Shown here one piece after another: positions 911 to 14,209 of a stretch of 16,492 nt of DNA. Positions within the stretch are counted from its first letter, which is position 1. Each line of letters begins with the position of its first letter. Source of the stretch: Desulfovibrionaceae bacterium UBA3823. GTDB taxonomy: Bacteria; Desulfobacterota; Desulfovibrionia; Desulfovibrionales; Desulfovibrionaceae. The stretch covers positions 5,167-21,658 of the forward strand of contig DFDR01000170.1 of the NCBI GenBank assembly GCA_002369295.1. The letters are read 5' to 3'. The notes under the pieces are model-generated. The model made no database searches and was not told the DNA's origin. It saw only the letters and a list, made by a program, of their open reading frames with translations. A program made the translations under genes and the position numbers.

Positions 911-1759
911 CTAGCCGAGCAGGGGCTGGATCACGTTGAGGGACCAGAGCATCTTCATGGCGACGATGACAAGGAAGCAGGCAAAGGCCTTCTTGAGCTT
1001 GGCCGTGGGCAGGGCGTGGGAGAGGCTGGCGCCCACGGGGGCGAAGAAGAAGCTCACGCAGGCGATGCCGAGGAAGGCCAGGACGCTGACGTAGCCAAAG
1101 CAGCCTTCCGGAAGACCCGGGGCCTGCCAGCCGCCGACGATGTAGCTCACGGTGCCGGCCACGGCGATGGGAAAGCCGATGGCCGCCGACGTGCCGACGG
1201 CGTGGTGCATGGGCACGTTGCAGAAGGTCATGAAGGGCACGGAAAGGGTGCCGCCGCCGATGCCGACGAAGCTGGAGACGAGGCCGATGACGCCGCCAGC
1301 CGTGCAGGTGCCGGCAAAGCCCGGCATCTCGCGGGAGGCCTTGGGCTTGTAGCCGGAGAGCATCTGGGCTGCCACGAAGAGCAGGAAGACGATGAAGAAG
1401 GCCCGCAGGAAGAATGTCGGCATGCGCGTGGCCACGAGGCCGCCGCAGAAGGTGCCGAGGAGGATGCCGGGAGTGATGTGCTTCAGGATGTCGAAGTGCA
1501 CGGCGCCGCGCTTCCAGTGGGCGCGCGAGCTGGAGACGGAAGTCACCATGATGCTGGCCAGGGAGGTGCCGAGGGCGAGCTGGTGGATCTGGCCCTCGGG
1601 GTAGCCCAGCATCTCGAAGACGATGTCGAGCATGGGCACGATGACGATGCCGCCGCCGACGCCGAGCAGGCCTGCGAGCACGCCGGCCACGGCGCCGCAG
1701 CCCATGAAGGTGGCGATGGGAATCCACATGGCCTGAAGATAGCTGATGACCGCTTCCAT
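911..1759 (-). CDS. TauE/SafE family permease (sulfite or organosulfur anion exporter-like)
   Basis: A 282-residue, eight-segment membrane protein of the TauE/SafE (DUF81) family. The family's internal duplication is visible: GVGGGIVIVP at 33-42 and VGIGGGTLSVP at about 165-175 are the two copies of the signature. Characterised members export sulfite, sulfoacetate or related anions, or take up small organic acids; the substrate here cannot be read from sequence. Sulfite export would suit a sulfur-respiring organism, but that is inference. The ATG at 1759 has a good Shine-Dalgarno (GGAGG on the minus strand at 1768-1772, 8-nt spacer). The gene is the first of a probable two-gene transcript with the YitT gene (17 nt between them) and is divergent from the pyrB leader. 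Confidence 0.93.
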   Translation of the reverse strand: MEAVISYLQAMWIPIATFMGCGAVAGVLAGLLGVGGGIVIVPMLDIVFEMLGYPEGQIHQLALGTSLASIMVTSVSSSRAHWKRGAVHFDILKHITPGILLGTFCGGLVATRMPTFFLRAFFIVFLLFVAAQMLSGYKPKASREMPGFAGTCTAGGVIGLVSSFVGIGGGTLSVPFMTFCNVPMHHAVGTSAAIGFPIAVAGTVSYIVGGWQAPGLPEGCFGYVSVLAFLGIACVSFFFAPVGASLSHALPTAKLKKAFACFLVIVAMKMLWSLNVIQPLLG

Positions 1760-1836
1760 GAAAAAAGCCTCCCTGCAGTCGAAAGATGTCCGATCTTGTA
1801 AGGGCAGACGCCCCGGCTGTCCAGCGGCCGCGATCC

Positions 1837-1865
1837 TTTACAAATCCTTTTGCGGGCAGTATCTC
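1837..1865 (+). promoter_or_regulatory. Weak candidate promoter for the pyrB leader
   Basis: TTTACA (1837-1842) and TATCTC (1860-1865) are separated by 17 nt. The -35 is good but the -10 matches only three of six positions, and transcription would begin almost at the leader ATG (1873). This is the best sigma70-like pair I see between the divergent permease start and the leader ORF, and it remains tentative. Confidence 0.25.
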
Positions 1866-1872
1866 TTGGGCC

Positions 1873-1986
1873 ATGAAGCACTGCGTCTGCACAAGGCTTG
1901 CGGCCCTCGGGCCCGAAAACGCTGCCGCGCGGCAGCTCTGCCCCTTTTTTCTTCCTCCGCCCTCAAGGCGGTTTTTTTTTGCCTGA
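1873..1986 (+). CDS. Probable pyrB operon leader peptide (PyrL-like, attenuator-coupled)
   Basis: A 37-codon ORF upstream of pyrB. It starts MKHCVCTRL, contains PFFLPPP where the RNA is a pyrimidine tract (1941-1956), and ends RRFFFA, with three Phe codons formed by the T run of an intrinsic terminator. The stop (1984-1986) lies 4 nt beyond that run. E. coli PyrL, as I remember it, has the same architecture: a short peptide with C-V near the N-terminus, a Phe run encoded by a U-rich pause region, and a reading frame that crosses the terminator. The role would be to let a ribosome close behind a paused polymerase block the hairpin when UTP is low. The Shine-Dalgarno is weak. An in-frame ATG at 1786 would give a 66-residue version. 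The gene is inferred from position and layout, not from a database match. Confidence 0.55.
   Translation: MKHCVCTRLAALGPENAAARQLCPFFLPPPSRRFFFA
1921..1936 (+). repeat. Perfect 16-nt palindrome in pyrB leader, possible pause hairpin
   Basis: GCTGCCGC followed by GCGGCAGC forms a perfect palindrome. In RNA it can fold as a 6-bp stem with a GCGC loop. It lies 4 nt before a run of 16 pyrimidines (1941-1956) and 20 nt before the terminator stem. In the pyrBI model a hairpin followed by a U-rich tract slows RNA polymerase in a UTP-dependent way. That role is inferred from position. Confidence 0.5.
1957..1980 (+). terminator. Intrinsic terminator/attenuator in pyrB leader
   Basis: CCGCC (1957-1961), loop CTCAA, GGCGG (1967-1971), then nine T residues (1972-1980). 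It points toward pyrB, yet no plus-strand gene precedes it apart from the short leader ORF, so it must act on the pyrB leader transcript. This is the key evidence for attenuation control of pyrB-pyrC. The stem is short (5 bp) but all GC. Confidence 0.8.
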
Positions 1987-2053
1987 GCGCAGGCGCTAGG
2001 AAACACCAGACACACCCGGCCATGCCCAAGGTGCCGGACTGGAGGCGCACACT

Positions 2054-2992
2054 GTGGAAAAAGACAACCGCTATCTCTGGAAGCACAAGGATCTCCTCGA
2101 CGTCACCCAGCTGAGCCGGGAGGATACCGACCACCTGCTGGACCTCGCCGCCAGCTTCCAGGAAATCAACAAGCGTCCGGTCAAGAAGGTTCCCACCCTC
2201 AAGGGCAAGTCGATCATCCTCTTCTTCGCCGAGAACAGCACGCGCACCAAGACGAGCTTCGACATCGCCGGCAAGCGCCTCTCGGCAGACACTCACGCCC
2301 TTTCCAAGTCGGGCTCCAGCATCAACAAGGGCGAAAGCCTCAAGGACACCGGCCAGACCCTCATGGCCATGAATCCCGACGTCATCGTCATCCGCCACTC
2401 CTCCAGCGGCGCGGCGGAGTATCTGGCCAGGCTCCTGCCCTGCTCCATCGTCAACGCCGGCGACGGCTGGCACGCCCATCCCACCCAGGCCCTGCTCGAC
2501 AGCTACTCCCTGCGCCAGGTGTGGGGCCCCAGCTTCAAGGGCAAGACCCTGCTCATCCTGGGCGACATCGCCCACAGCCGCGTGGCCCGCTCCAACCTCT
2601 ACCTGCTCAGCCTCCTCGGCTGCAAGGTGCGCTTCTGTGGCCCCAGCACCCTGCTTCCGCCAGGCATAGACGGGTGGAACTGCGAGGTCTTCACGGACAT
2701 CGAGGAAGCGCTCAAGGGCGTCGATGCCTGCATGTGCCTCAGGCTCCAGCTGGAGCGCCAGGAAGCCGGCCTGCTGCCGGATCTGCTCGAGTACTCCCGC
2801 CGCTTCTGCCTCACGCGCGAGCGCCTGAACCTGGCCAATCCAGGCTGCAAGGTGCTCCATCCCGGTCCCATGAACCGCGGGCTTGAAATCGCCGACGAGC
2901 TGGCGGACTGCCCGGAATCCCTCGTCCTCGACCAGGTCTCCGCCGGCGTGGCCGTGCGCATGGCCGTGCTCTACCTGCTGGCCACGCGCTAG
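2054..2992 (+). CDS. pyrB: Aspartate carbamoyltransferase catalytic subunit
   Basis: Catalyses carbamoyl phosphate plus L-aspartate to N-carbamoyl-L-aspartate, the committed step of pyrimidine synthesis, in the cytoplasm. The 312 residues match the family. The carbamoyl-phosphate loop STRTKTSFD is at 62-70, the SSINKGES loop at 88-95, HPTQALLD at 142-149, and [11 protein letters not shown] lies near the C-terminus. The start is GTG at 2054 with TGGAGG ending 8 nt upstream; the ATG at 2022 is out of frame. No regulatory subunit gene (pyrI) follows; pyrC begins 49 nt after the stop. Expression is probably controlled by the upstream leader attenuator. The lack of pyrI suggests that feedback acts on transcription rather than through a PyrI subunit, unless pyrI lies elsewhere. 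Confidence 0.97.
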
Positions 2993-3041
2993 TCCGTCCC
3001 CGGCACCCTACCGCAAGGAACATCCTTCTGGAGTGATGATA

Positions 3042-4304
3042 ATGAAATTCTGCCTTACCAACGCCCGGCACCTGGGATGCGACGTCGATCTGCACATCGA
3101 AGACGGCAAGGTCGTCACCATGACGCCAGCCGGCAGGATCCCGCCCGCCGGGGACGAAGCCGTCGAGGACGCCCAGGGCCTGGTGCTCCTGCCCGGCCTC
3201 ACCGACTGCCACGTGCATCTGCGCGAACCCGGCTTCGAATGGAAGGAGGACATCGCCTCGGGCCTCGAGGCCGCCGCGCACGGCGGCTTCTGCCAGGTCA
3301 TGTGCATGCCCAACACCAATCCCTGCAACGACACGGCCGGCGTCACCTACCTCATGATGGCCAAGGCCCTGAAGAGCCATCCCCACGGCCCCAGGCTCTG
3401 CCCCGTGGCGGCGGCCACCCTCGGCCTCAAGAGCCAGACCATGGCGCCCCTCGGCGAACTCAAGGAAGCGGGCTGCGTTGCCGTCTCCAACGACGGGCGC
3501 CCCATGACCAACACCGAGCTCATGCGCCGCACCATGGAGTACGCCCACGACCTCGGGCTCGTCTTCACCGACCACTGCGAAGACCTCCAGCTCGCTCCCG
3601 GCTACCTCATGAACGAGGGCGCCGTCAGCGGCGAGCTCGGCGTCATGGGCCAGCCCGTGGTCGGCGAAGCCCTGCAGGTGGCCCGCGACTGCATGCTTGC
3701 CGAGTACCTCGGCATCCCCGTGCACATCGCCCACGTCTCCTGCAAGCTGGCCGCCGACGTCATCGCCTGGTTCAAGTCGCGCGGCGCCAAGGTCACCGCC
3801 GAGACCTGCCCCCACTACCTGCTCCTCGACGAAACCCTCATGGCCGGCTACAACGCCTGGGCCAAGGTGAACCCGCCCCTGCGCACCCCGGCCGACCGCG
3901 AGGCCATGGTCAAGGCCGTCAAGGACGGCACCATCGACATCATCGTCACCGACCACGCCCCGCACGCCGACCTCGACAAGGACCAGACCCTGGACGAGGC
4001 CCCCAACGGCCACACCGGCCTCGACCTTTCCCTCTCCCTGATCTGGGGCCTCGTGCGCGAAGGCGCCCTCAGCGAAGCCGACGTCGTGCGCCTCATGGCC
4101 GAAAAGCCTGCCGAGATCTTCAGCCTGCCCGTCAACCGCTTCAATCCCGGCGACCCGGCCGACTTCATTCTCTTCGATCCCAGCCTCGAATGGGTGGTCT
4201 CACCCGAGACCATCTACTCCAAAAGCTGCAACACCCCGCACCGCGGCAAGACCCTCCAGGGCCGCTGCGTCCACAACTGGATAGGCGGCGTCAAGCTCTT
4301 CTAG
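3042..4304 (+). CDS. pyrC: Dihydroorotase (class I)
   Basis: Interconverts N-carbamoyl-L-aspartate and dihydroorotate, the step after pyrB, in the cytoplasm. The protein has 420 residues, the usual class I length. The zinc-site motif HVHLREPG is at 57-64. Later metal or catalytic motifs are TDHCED, HIAHVSC, CPHYLLLDE and the VTDHAPH segment with its Asp. These mark the bacterial class I enzyme rather than the shorter E. coli type. Of two nearby in-frame ATGs (3036 and 3042) I prefer 3042, because TGGAG at 3029-3033 then has an 8-nt spacer. It is the second gene of the pyr transcript. It is followed by a long hairpin (4321-4374) before the MEMO-like gene. Confidence 0.96.
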   Translation: MKFCLTNARHLGCDVDLHIEDGKVVTMTPAGRIPPAGDEAVEDAQGLVLLPGLTDCHVHLREPGFEWKEDIASGLEAAAHGGFCQVMCMPNTNPCNDTAGVTYLMMAKALKSHPHGPRLCPVAAATLGLKSQTMAPLGELKEAGCVAVSNDGRPMTNTELMRRTMEYAHDLGLVFTDHCEDLQLAPGYLMNEGAVSGELGVMGQPVVGEALQVARDCMLAEYLGIPVHIAHVSCKLAADVIAWFKSRGAKVTAETCPHYLLLDETLMAGYNAWAKVNPPLRTPADREAMVKAVKDGTIDIIVTDHAPHADLDKDQTLDEAPNGHTGLDLSLSLIWGLVREGALSEADVVRLMAEKPAEIFSLPVNRFNPGDPADFILFDPSLEWVVSPETIYSKSCNTPHRGKTLQGRCVHNWIGGVKLF

Positions 4305-4415: not shown

Positions 4416-5276
4416 ATGCCCGAACGCACCCCTGCCGTTGCCGGCAGATTCTATCCCGCAGGCGCCGAAGAAGCCCTGGCGGCCATCGAAAACCTGGCCT
4501 CGCAGGCAGGCCGTCTGGCCGACAGGATTGGTCCCTGGGATCCGCCCGCCAAGCACCCCCGCATCGTCATGCTGCCCCACGCCGGCTGGATCTTCTCCGG
4601 CCTAGCCACCATGGCGGCCCTTGCCGGCGTCGCCCTGAAAAAGCGCCTCGTTGTCCTGTGCCCCAACCACACCGGCCAGGGACGCCCCTTTGGCGTATGG
4701 CCCGACGGCGAATGGCAGACCCCGCTCGGCAAGGTGCCCGTGGACGCCGAACTGGCCCAGGCCCTCTGCCGGCAGGCCCCCTTCCGCGAAGATCTCGCCT
4801 GCCACCGCGGGGAGCACTCCATCGAAGTGCTCCTGCCCTTTCTGCTCTACCGCGCCAAGCCCGAGATCCCGCGCATCACGCCGGTCTGCGTCGGCACCCA
4901 GGATGCAGCCAGCCTCGAGCAGGCGGGCCAGGCCCTCGCCAGGGCCATTGCCGAGACGGATCCCGACGGCATAGGCATCATCGTGAGCAGCGACATGAAC
5001 CACTACGAAAGCGAGGAGACGACGCTGGAAAAGGACAAGATCGCCCTCGCCCAGGTGGTCGCCGAAAACCCTGGAGGCCTGCTGGAGGCCTGCCGCCGGC
5101 ACCATGTCACCATGTGCGGATGCAGCCCCATGGCGCTGGCCCTCTGGTGCGTCCATGCCCTGCGCAGGGAAGGCGAAGCCGTCCCGAAGCCTGCCGTCGT
5201 CGTCCACGACAGCTCCGGCCGGGTCTCCCGCGACCACGCGCACGTGGTGGGCTACGCCGGCTGCCATGTATTTTAG
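4416..5276 (+). CDS. AmmeMemoRadiSam system protein B (MEMO1 family)
   Basis: A 286-residue MEMO-family protein, related to extradiol dioxygenases. Family motifs are in order: PAVAGRFYP at 6-14, PHAG with H55, CPNHTG with H85, EHSIEVLLPFL at 133-143, SSDMNHY at 191-197, and CGCSPM at 234-239. H55, H85 and C234 correspond in order to the human MEMO1 metal-binding His-His-Cys set as I recall it. The bacterial function is not established; the family name comes from its co-occurrence with AMMECR1 and a radical SAM enzyme. That radical SAM partner is in this window (12941-13954, minus strand). The ATG at 4416 has an excellent AAGGAGG (4404-4410, 5-nt spacer). It lies 111 nt after pyrC on the same strand, so it may share the pyr transcript. 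Confidence 0.93.
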   Translation: MPERTPAVAGRFYPAGAEEALAAIENLASQAGRLADRIGPWDPPAKHPRIVMLPHAGWIFSGLATMAALAGVALKKRLVVLCPNHTGQGRPFGVWPDGEWQTPLGKVPVDAELAQALCRQAPFREDLACHRGEHSIEVLLPFLLYRAKPEIPRITPVCVGTQDAASLEQAGQALARAIAETDPDGIGIIVSSDMNHYESEETTLEKDKIALAQVVAENPGGLLEACRRHHVTMCGCSPMALALWCVHALRREGEAVPKPAVVVHDSSGRVSRDHAHVVGYAGCHVF

Positions 5277-12940: not shown

Positions 12941-13954
12941 CTAGGTCCACACGCCGGCAAGCCGCTGCCCGCAGGAGGGGCAGACGCCCTTGACGAGCCT
13001 GGTCACGGCAAAGCCTCTGCGCTCGATGAGCACGGTTCCGCAGCCGGGGCAGCGCGTCGACGAGCTCTTGGCCGAGCGGAGGTTGCCGGCATAGGCGTAT
13101 CTGAGACCTTCGGCCTCGCCAATGGCGCAGGCCCGCAGCACCGTTGCCTCAGGCGTGGGCGGGCGGTCCTGCATGCGGTAGCAGGGGAAGAAGGCGGACA
13201 CGTGCCAAGGCGTGTCGCGGCCGAGTTCGCAGGCAATGAAGTCAGCAATGGCCTTGAACTCGGCATCGCTGTCGTTGAGGCCCGGGATGGCGAGCGTCGT
13301 CACCTCGACCCACCAGCCGAGGCGCTTCATGGCCGCAAGATTGCGCTTCACCGCGTCGAGGCTGCCTGAGCAGACCATGCGGTAGACCTCGGGGCTGAAG
13401 GTCTTGAGGTCAATGTTGGCTGCCGTGATGCGGGGTCCAAGCTCGCGCAGGCATTCTTCGGACATGCAGCCGTTGGACACCATGACGGTGCGCACGCCCT
13501 CCGCCAAGGCAAGATCCGCCGTCTTTGCCATGAGCTCGAAGAACACCGTCGGCTCGTTGTAGGTGAAGGAAATGCTGGGTATGCCGTGCGCCCTGGCGCT
13601 GCCCACGATGTCCTGGGGGCGCACCGGCCGCTGGCCCGAGCAGTCGCCCGTTTCCGCAGGGCGCCTGGAGATGCTCGAATTCTGGCAGAAGCGGCAGGCG
13701 AAGTTGCAGCCGAGGGTGCCTATGGAGAGCGTCCTCGTTGCCGGCAGGAAGTGGTAGAGCGGCTTCTTCTCCACCGGATCCAGATTGACGCTCGCGACGG
13801 CATCGCCGACCAGCGTTCTCATTTCGCCGGCTTCGTTGACACGCACGCCGCAGAAGCCCTTCTGGCCCGGCTCCAGCGAGCAGCGCCGAAAGCACAGCCG
13901 GCACCGGACCCGGCCCCCGTCCAGACGTTCCCACAAGGCTGCCTTGACTGACAT
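12941..13954 (-). CDS. AmmeMemoRadiSam system radical SAM enzyme
   Basis: A 337-residue radical SAM protein. The N-terminal Cys cluster is C18, C21, C25 and C35 (in CRLCFRRC and GFCGVR). The radical SAM CxxxCxxC is CNFACRFC (C83, C87, C90), followed by QN. A C-terminal zinc-ribbon-like pair, CPGC (302-305) and CPSC (325-328), ends just before AGVWT. The order and the phrases YNEPTVFFE and NIDLKTF are those of the AmmeMemoRadiSam radical SAM family, which resembles pyruvate-formate-lyase activases. Its substrate is not established. The MEMO-like partner is at 4416-5276 in this window; the AMMECR1 partner is not seen. The ATG at 13954 has AAGGAGG with a 6-nt spacer. The open frame extends 68 codons upstream without family resemblance, so I reject the longer start. 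It is divergent from purM. Confidence 0.94.
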   Translation of the reverse strand: MSVKAALWERLDGGRVRCRLCFRRCSLEPGQKGFCGVRVNEAGEMRTLVGDAVASVNLDPVEKKPLYHFLPATRTLSIGTLGCNFACRFCQNSSISRRPAETGDCSGQRPVRPQDIVGSARAHGIPSISFTYNEPTVFFELMAKTADLALAEGVRTVMVSNGCMSEECLRELGPRITAANIDLKTFSPEVYRMVCSGSLDAVKRNLAAMKRLGWWVEVTTLAIPGLNDSDAEFKAIADFIACELGRDTPWHVSAFFPCYRMQDRPPTPEATVLRACAIGEAEGLRYAYAGNLRSAKSSSTRCPGCGTVLIERRGFAVTRLVKGVCPSCGQRLAGVWT

Positions 13955-14209
13955 GGCGTTCCTCCTTGGCAGGGCATGGCTTGCGGACCCTGCCGATGCG
14001 CCAGCATAGCACCATGCGCCACGGAAGGTCACGCTGGCTGGGTGAGGCAGGCGCCCCCAGCCGGCAGAGAGCATGCCGCTGGCCCGCCAGCATCGTGCAG
14101 CCGGTCGTGCGCCTGCCCCCGGCCACGCACCGGAACCGCCCCTCCATGGCGCAATCATGCCGCAGACGAAAAAATGCAGAAAAAACCGATCTGCAATGGC
14201 TTCTTCCGC

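Follow-up and report, generated by a model that had tools for sequence, protein, structure and literature searches.

A predicted leaderless reading frame runs through a putative pyrBC attenuator in Desulfovibrio

The pyrBC operon and its leader

The window (16,492 nucleotides, the whole stretch of DNA analysed, from a Desulfovibrionaceae genome) carries a pyrBC operon on its plus strand. Its first gene, pyrB (2054–2992, GTG start), encodes the catalytic subunit of aspartate carbamoyltransferase (Pfam OTCace_N/OTCace; NCBIfam aspartate carbamoyltransferase) and has a Shine–Dalgarno sequence, GGAGG, at 2041–2045. The second is annotated as the dihydroorotase gene pyrC (3036–4304), bearing out the first-pass annotation, which had placed pyrC rather than pyrI 3′ of pyrB. 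The nearest named record is a Desulfovibrio sp. metagenome-assembled genome (L001, PyrB 96% identical). The upstream neighbour, a TauE/SafE permease by Pfam (911–1759), lies on the opposite strand, divergent from pyrB, so there is no upstream gene for a hairpin ahead of pyrB to end. AmmeMemoRadiSam protein B (4416–5276) directly follows pyrC, with the radical SAM enzyme of the same system (12941–14158) some 8 kb away. Rfam at the gathering threshold finds two tRNAs in the whole window and nothing else.

Ahead of pyrB, on the same strand, a predicted pyrBC promoter is formed by a −35 box, TTTACA (1837–1842), kept across relatives, and a candidate −10 box, TATCTC (1860–1865), 17 nt 3′ of it. An ATG follows 7 nt on, at 1873, and opens a leader ORF of 37 sense codons and a TGA (1873–1986); no Shine–Dalgarno sequence stands 5′ of this ATG and we predict the ORF to be leaderless. 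Along the ORF lie a perfect palindrome, GCTGCCGCGCGGCAGC (1921–1936), a possible hairpin; a tract of 16 pyrimidines including T6 (1941–1956), a candidate nucleotide-sensitive pause region; and an intrinsic terminator, the putative attenuator (1957–1980). The stem–loop (1957–1971) has five G–C pairs around a 5-nt loop, CTCAA, with a folding energy of −8.3 kcal/mol, and is followed by nine T (1972–1980). The ORF crosses it entirely, the first base of its stop (TGA, 1984–1986) falling four bases past the T run. ORF, palindrome, pyrimidines, GC stem, T9 and pyrB had all been read by the first-pass annotation and all are there in the letters; the promoter-like pair was absent from it.

Neither the hairpin nor the frame is exceptional in the window alone. 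The terminator at 1957–1980 is the one terminator-like site in 1750–2100, against a mean of 0.7 (s.d. 0.9) in shuffled sequence, and in such GC-rich DNA dinucleotide shuffling leaves 28.5 of 46 genus leaders with an open frame. The promoter call likewise rests on conservation, since TATCTC matches TATAAT at three of six bases and a consensus promoter scan of 1750–2100 lists no promoter, the TTTACA pair included. That scan also lists none 3′ of the terminator, a reading limited by its missing the TTTACA promoter. The significance of the arrangement is that of its conservation in the sequences of relatives, not of the window sequence by itself.

Conservation in Desulfovibrio and the wider order

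We sampled 79 Desulfovibrio genomes and located pyrB in 75 of them (E ≤ 1e-60; no pyrB at this threshold in G004, G031, G056 and G116). A first set of 58 loci (L081–L138, L081 being that of the window genome) was examined before the other 17, which were fetched later as a fresh test but are not independent: the upstream DNA of L193 is identical to that of an earlier locus and several others are close relatives. Named loci L001–L039, partly duplicates of these genomes, were inspected outside the count of 75.

A terminator was called by script within 200 nt 5′ of pyrB in 71 of the 75 loci (55/58 in the first set, 16/17 in the later one), or 70/75 if a doubtful call in L136 is dropped; L130, L131, L133 and L190 have none. 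L131 has kept its TTTACA promoter, but neither a terminator nor an ATG 6–8 nt behind the −10 box. L190 (G117) shows repeated CCTGCAT-like units 5′ of pyrB where the terminator is absent. Many terminators of L087–L132 have CCCCGTTG..CARCGGGG in common despite diverged leaders. A strict version of this pattern, run against five genomes, had a single hit, at pyrB of G055; it carries little weight, since the remaining four genomes have pyrB terminators that depart from the strict form.

The shared layout of promoter, ATG, terminator and pyrB occurs in 58 of the 75 loci, with 53 distinct leader sequences; L121, L135, L185, L197 and L199, whose leader start is ambiguous, fall outside it. Across these 58 leaderless-type loci the −35 box is TTTACA in 57 and TTGACA in one, flanked as CTTTACAA in 55, with a spacer of 17 nt (52 loci) or 18 nt (6 loci) to the −10 box. 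The ATG follows that box by 6, 7 or 8 nt (29, 18 and 11 loci), which puts the predicted transcript start at the ATG or one to two bases from it. The base before the ATG is C or T in 57/58, and an SD-like match of 4 nt precedes it in 5/58. We thus infer the transcript start from promoter spacing, and the leader ORF is predicted to be leaderless. As a genome-wide pattern, TTTACA-N17-TANNNT-N6-8-ATG has one match in each of four complete relatives, at the pyrB leader in three and elsewhere in the fourth; a reversed control pattern has one match, in one of the four. The pattern misses G000, the window genome, whose −10 box has a final C. By eye, the −35 region of several loci reads as a CTTT-AC-AAAG palindrome, a possible operator.

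In 44 of the 58 loci at most 31 nt separate the stem from the pyrB start (taken from the alignment to the query), so that a full promoter would not fit between them and transcription there must cross the terminator; the window, with 82 nt between stem and pyrB, is outside this argument.

Read from the leader ATG, the frame stays free of stops as far as the terminator stem in 57 of the 58 loci, against 13/58 and 26/58 for the frames shifted by one and two bases. Its first stop lies in the stem–loop in 19 loci, beyond it in 37 and upstream in one, with none in sight in one more; the exception, L138, has kept promoter, ATG and terminator, but its frame is 5 codons long. As the loci are related, independent events are fewer than these raw counts, so we clustered the 53 distinct leaders. 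Clustering at 75% identity gives 31 groups, of which 30 are fully open where shuffling predicts 19.5 (P = 3e-6); at 60% identity there are 15, with 14 open and 8.4 predicted (P = 0.001). Nor is openness a by-product of a terminator held in one frame, for the distance from ATG to stem falls in all three residues modulo 3 (19/16/11 of 46 leaders). The 17 later genomes supplied 12 leaderless-type loci, all 12 open (other frames 4/12 and 3/12). The first-pass annotation had proposed conservation of ORF and terminator together in relatives as its test, and the outcome is positive, in the later genomes as well.

Seven loci that depart from the leaderless layout have instead a frame led by an SD-like sequence, which extends to the terminator or almost to it (L084, L085, L096, L124, L128, L137 and L191); these were picked by eye among all frames listed and weigh less than the 58. 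In L084 the stop begins 10 nt 5′ of the stem. In L137 a GTG frame stops 16 nt 5′ of the stem, with a TTG 4 nt upstream whose frame crosses it, and L191 has a TTG start.

What is conserved appears from these comparisons to be the openness of the frame, not its amino acids. Five disjoint pairs of equal-length leaders differ by 22, 25 and 24 bases at codon positions one, two and three, against 5, 5 and 80 for pyrB in the same pairs (first 240 nt minus the first two codons). A sixth pair, L117/L119, with one difference at a second codon position, was left out of these sums. Codon-level conservation of the leader peptide was looked for and is absent. Openness of this kind fits translation through the terminator, and argues against amino-acid sensing or a functional micropeptide.

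Loci also differ in whether an SD stands ahead of pyrB. A match of at least 4 nt is found before pyrB in 21 of the first 58 loci (L081–L138) and is absent in 37; the window, with its GGAGG, is among the former. In 29 loci read for both genes, pyrC has a match in 28 and pyrB in 9 (20 without), the pyrC count being the more lenient, as the best of several nearby starts was taken. The difference suggests that pyrB may rely for its translation on the leader ribosome or on some other route. Translational coupling by an ATGA overlap was considered as a rule for Desulfovibrio and rejected: the leader stop falls on the pyrB start in 10 of 46 cases, and since pyrB usually begins ATGA even that count is weak.

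A comparable arrangement exists in a second genus, g12, from another family of the order (L202–L217). A GGGAC..GTCCC-like terminator lies 5′ of pyrB in 14 of 16 genomes. Of these 14 terminator-bearing loci, 13 have a frame that begins with ATG and meets no stop before the stem, against 0/14 and 8/14 for the other frames; the g12 leaders are closely related among themselves. In the exception, L215, the stop begins 10 nt 5′ of the stem; L216, which has ATGAAT, was scored by eye. The leader stop overlaps the pyrB start as ATGA in 10/14. By eye, promoter, terminator and leader look unrelated to their Desulfovibrio counterparts, and the leaders are poor in T (0.14) and rich in A (36%).

In an initial sample, 32 loci came from other families of the order, and the script called no terminator in 21 of them; outside g12 only L162 looks like a convincing case, with an ATG frame that crosses the terminator. 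Terminators were not found in the 150–420 nt upstream of pyrB in Nitratidesulfovibrio-like L012, L015 and L017, where pyrB seems by eye to lie close behind another reading frame. In Mailhella L019 and L022 a TTTACA promoter is present, its −10 box followed about 30 nt later by a terminator, and there is no ATG at 6–8 nt; to judge by these features they possibly carry a pyrB attenuator devoid of such a leader ORF. Such a scattered distribution, with sequences so unlike, speaks for repeated origin.

Proposed mechanism, its signal and its competitors

The order of promoter, ATG and terminator, the open frame and the lack of amino-acid conservation are plain in the sequences, and we consider it likely that they serve transcription attenuation of the pyrBI type, read by a ribosome that translates the leader. 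In the scheme we propose, transcription would begin with the A of the ATG at 1873 or with a neighbouring base, and a ribosome would load on the leaderless 5′ end, while RNA polymerase passes the pyrimidine-rich stretch towards a terminator some 84 nt downstream. Most plausibly, a shortage of UTP (or CTP) would make polymerase pause or slow there; the ribosome behind it, its frame leading into or through the hairpin, would then be near enough to prevent the stem from forming, and polymerase would read on into pyrBC. When nucleotides are plentiful, polymerase would outrun the ribosome, the hairpin would form and transcription would end. The peptide would be irrelevant to this scheme, an open frame alone being required.

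For a leader of the window type, sensing of UTP (or CTP) is plausible on the base composition. In 46 leaders the last 10 nt ahead of the stem have a T fraction of 0.48, compared with 0.21 for sequence 5′ of the −35 box and 0.18 for the opening 60 nt of pyrB, and 24 of the 46 leaders hold a T run of five or more where 3.2 are expected by shuffling. The other 22 have none, T over the whole leader averages 26%, and g12 is T-poor and A-rich; because T tracts are not universal, UTP is doubtful as a general signal across lineages. The first-pass annotation had called the attenuator UTP-sensing; a T-rich tract is enriched, and the incomplete distribution of runs (24/46) and the T fraction of 0.14 in g12 leave UTP as a candidate signal. 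The palindrome it pointed out is present in the window; a 5-bp version was noticed in two close relatives only, L082 and L083, from inspection by eye and not from a tally across all loci. A common pause hairpin was also looked for by folding the leaders alone and rejected, the folds being hardly more stable than those of shuffled sequence (mean z −0.44; 3 of 45 below −2, with L138 omitted as too short). A passage in PMC9291695 indicates that the pyrL pause seems independent of an RNA hairpin, which fits the absence of a common hairpin here.

The closest competitor keeps the ribosome-read attenuator and changes its signal, so that general transcription–translation coupling, ribosome availability or leaderless initiation itself would be read and pyrimidine synthesis tied to translation capacity. 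It overlaps with our best explanation and differs in the signal only. In its favour, no leader property other than frame openness proved to be conserved, part of the genus lacks T tracts, and g12 leaders contain little T. Against it stand the number of leaders with T runs, well above the shuffled 3.2, and the T peak just before the stem, where a nucleotide-sensitive pause would help. We rate it as somewhat unlikely.

PyrR offers another route. Of 61 genomes, 53 encode a homologue scoring above the family cut-off, that of the window among them (L177; G000:C129:14373-14900), and PyrR could bind the leader RNA with UMP or UTP and favour the terminator, leaving the ORF incidental. We give this low probability. 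Rfam reveals no PyrR RNA element up to E = 10 in window positions 1700–2100, 13 relative loci and 8 pyrR loci, and relaxed searches no other pyrimidine-linked element, although a divergent element is possible; G065, G073 and G081 (loci L150, L153 and L149) have pyrR and no pyrB terminator; and the open frame would be left unexplained. We found no account of a role for PyrR in Desulfovibrio in the open-access literature searched.

Very unlikely, to our mind, is a constitutive partial terminator or small-RNA end whose ORF is fortuitous in GC-rich DNA. Chance-level values for both hairpin and open frame in the window would suit it, but not the frame-specific openness (57/58), the narrow distance from −10 box to ATG or the SD-led frames that, by eye, replace the leaderless one in seven loci. 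Leaders of the trp type stop 5′ of their competing hairpins. Attenuation by amino-acid sensing of the trp or his kind, for Arg or Pro for example, we dismiss as extremely improbable: there is a short ORF 5′ of a terminator, and the pooled peptides of 46 leaders hold 12.1% Pro, 10.8% Arg, 10.8% Ala and 10.5% Phe, but differences are even over codon positions, the listed peptides have no control-codon run in common by eye, and the frame stops in or beyond the terminator in 56/58 loci.

Ribosome-read attenuation through this frame remains our preferred reading. A broader proposal would have the Desulfovibrionales evolve a pyrBI-like attenuator separately from the enterobacteria, load its ribosome on the first base of the transcript and perhaps also use it to start pyrB, which is SD-less in most species; we offer this tentatively and lean slightly against it as a whole. 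If it is true, one short open frame gates both transcription and translation of an operon and is selected solely for being open, and the sulphate reducers provide a second, apparently independent case, implying that the design is easy to evolve and that a ribosome binding site is dispensable. The leaders also amount to a natural test of what such an attenuator requires, with dozens of species in which the frame is kept open and the peptide drifts. In other Gram-negative bacteria, too, pyr genes preceded by an intrinsic terminator should be checked for frames that cross it.

Comparison with known attenuators

We found no report of this pyrB leader in the open-access literature searched, most subscription papers being outside that scope, nor within it a leaderless start combined with a frame that crosses a pyrB terminator. 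Desulfovibrio is absent from the main text of a broad attenuator survey (PMC2965389). The attenuator design is known; the predicted leaderless version, the host group and the apparent selection for openness only are new as far as these searches go.

Gram-positive pyr attenuators controlled by PyrR likewise have a terminator ahead of pyr genes, and the window genome has a PyrR homologue; they differ from the present case in that a leader ORF occurs here and the PyrR RNA element was not found. Leaders of the trpL and ilvL type sense charged tRNA through their codons and competing hairpins. Those of Sinorhizobium trpL and Corynebacterium ilvL resemble ours in a leader ORF that starts, in our case by prediction, at the first base of the transcript, whereas here there is no conserved codon run and the ORF enters the terminator. 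For Sinorhizobium trpL such a start is described in PMC7298713, and leaderless initiation is discussed for the C. glutamicum ilvBNC attenuator in PMC11857589. Ribosome reinitiation at leader genes is treated in PMC4833913.

The closest known system is E. coli pyrL–pyrBI. Control of a pyrimidine operon by coupling of transcription to translation is described there in PMC10135430 and PMC5021804: at low UTP polymerase pauses and a trailing ribosome suppresses the pyrL terminator. According to PMC10135430, 49% of the pyrL template requires U. Both systems have a short ORF running through an intrinsic terminator near pyrB and a T-rich stretch in the leader, and their parts follow in the same order. 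They differ in that the start codon of E. coli pyrL is preceded by a 5′ leader, whereas here the ATG is predicted to stand at the transcript start with no SD. From ATG to stem the window leader is 23% T and that of pyrL 33%; pyrC takes the place of pyrI downstream, and pyrB lacks an SD in 37/58 relatives. The PyrL peptide can be aligned over five residues only. Kinship with PyrL was examined and rejected: a single BLASTP comparison matched PFFLP to PFFFP and nothing else (E = 0.13), and the terminators look unlike by eye. The likeness of the two peptides, which the first-pass annotation had remarked on, accordingly fails as a sign of kinship, the Phe runs being there because T runs are. Leader peptides drift freely, so that missing similarity to PyrL is weak evidence against common descent. 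Where the same annotation had suggested an independent or ancient version, ‘independent’ fits better and ‘ancient’ less well, and its main proposal, that a non-enteric bacterium has a pyrBI-like attenuator built on a leader ORF, is supported by the conservation of ORF and terminator. To judge by the sequences, this attenuator probably works like that of enteric pyrBI and probably is not descended from it.
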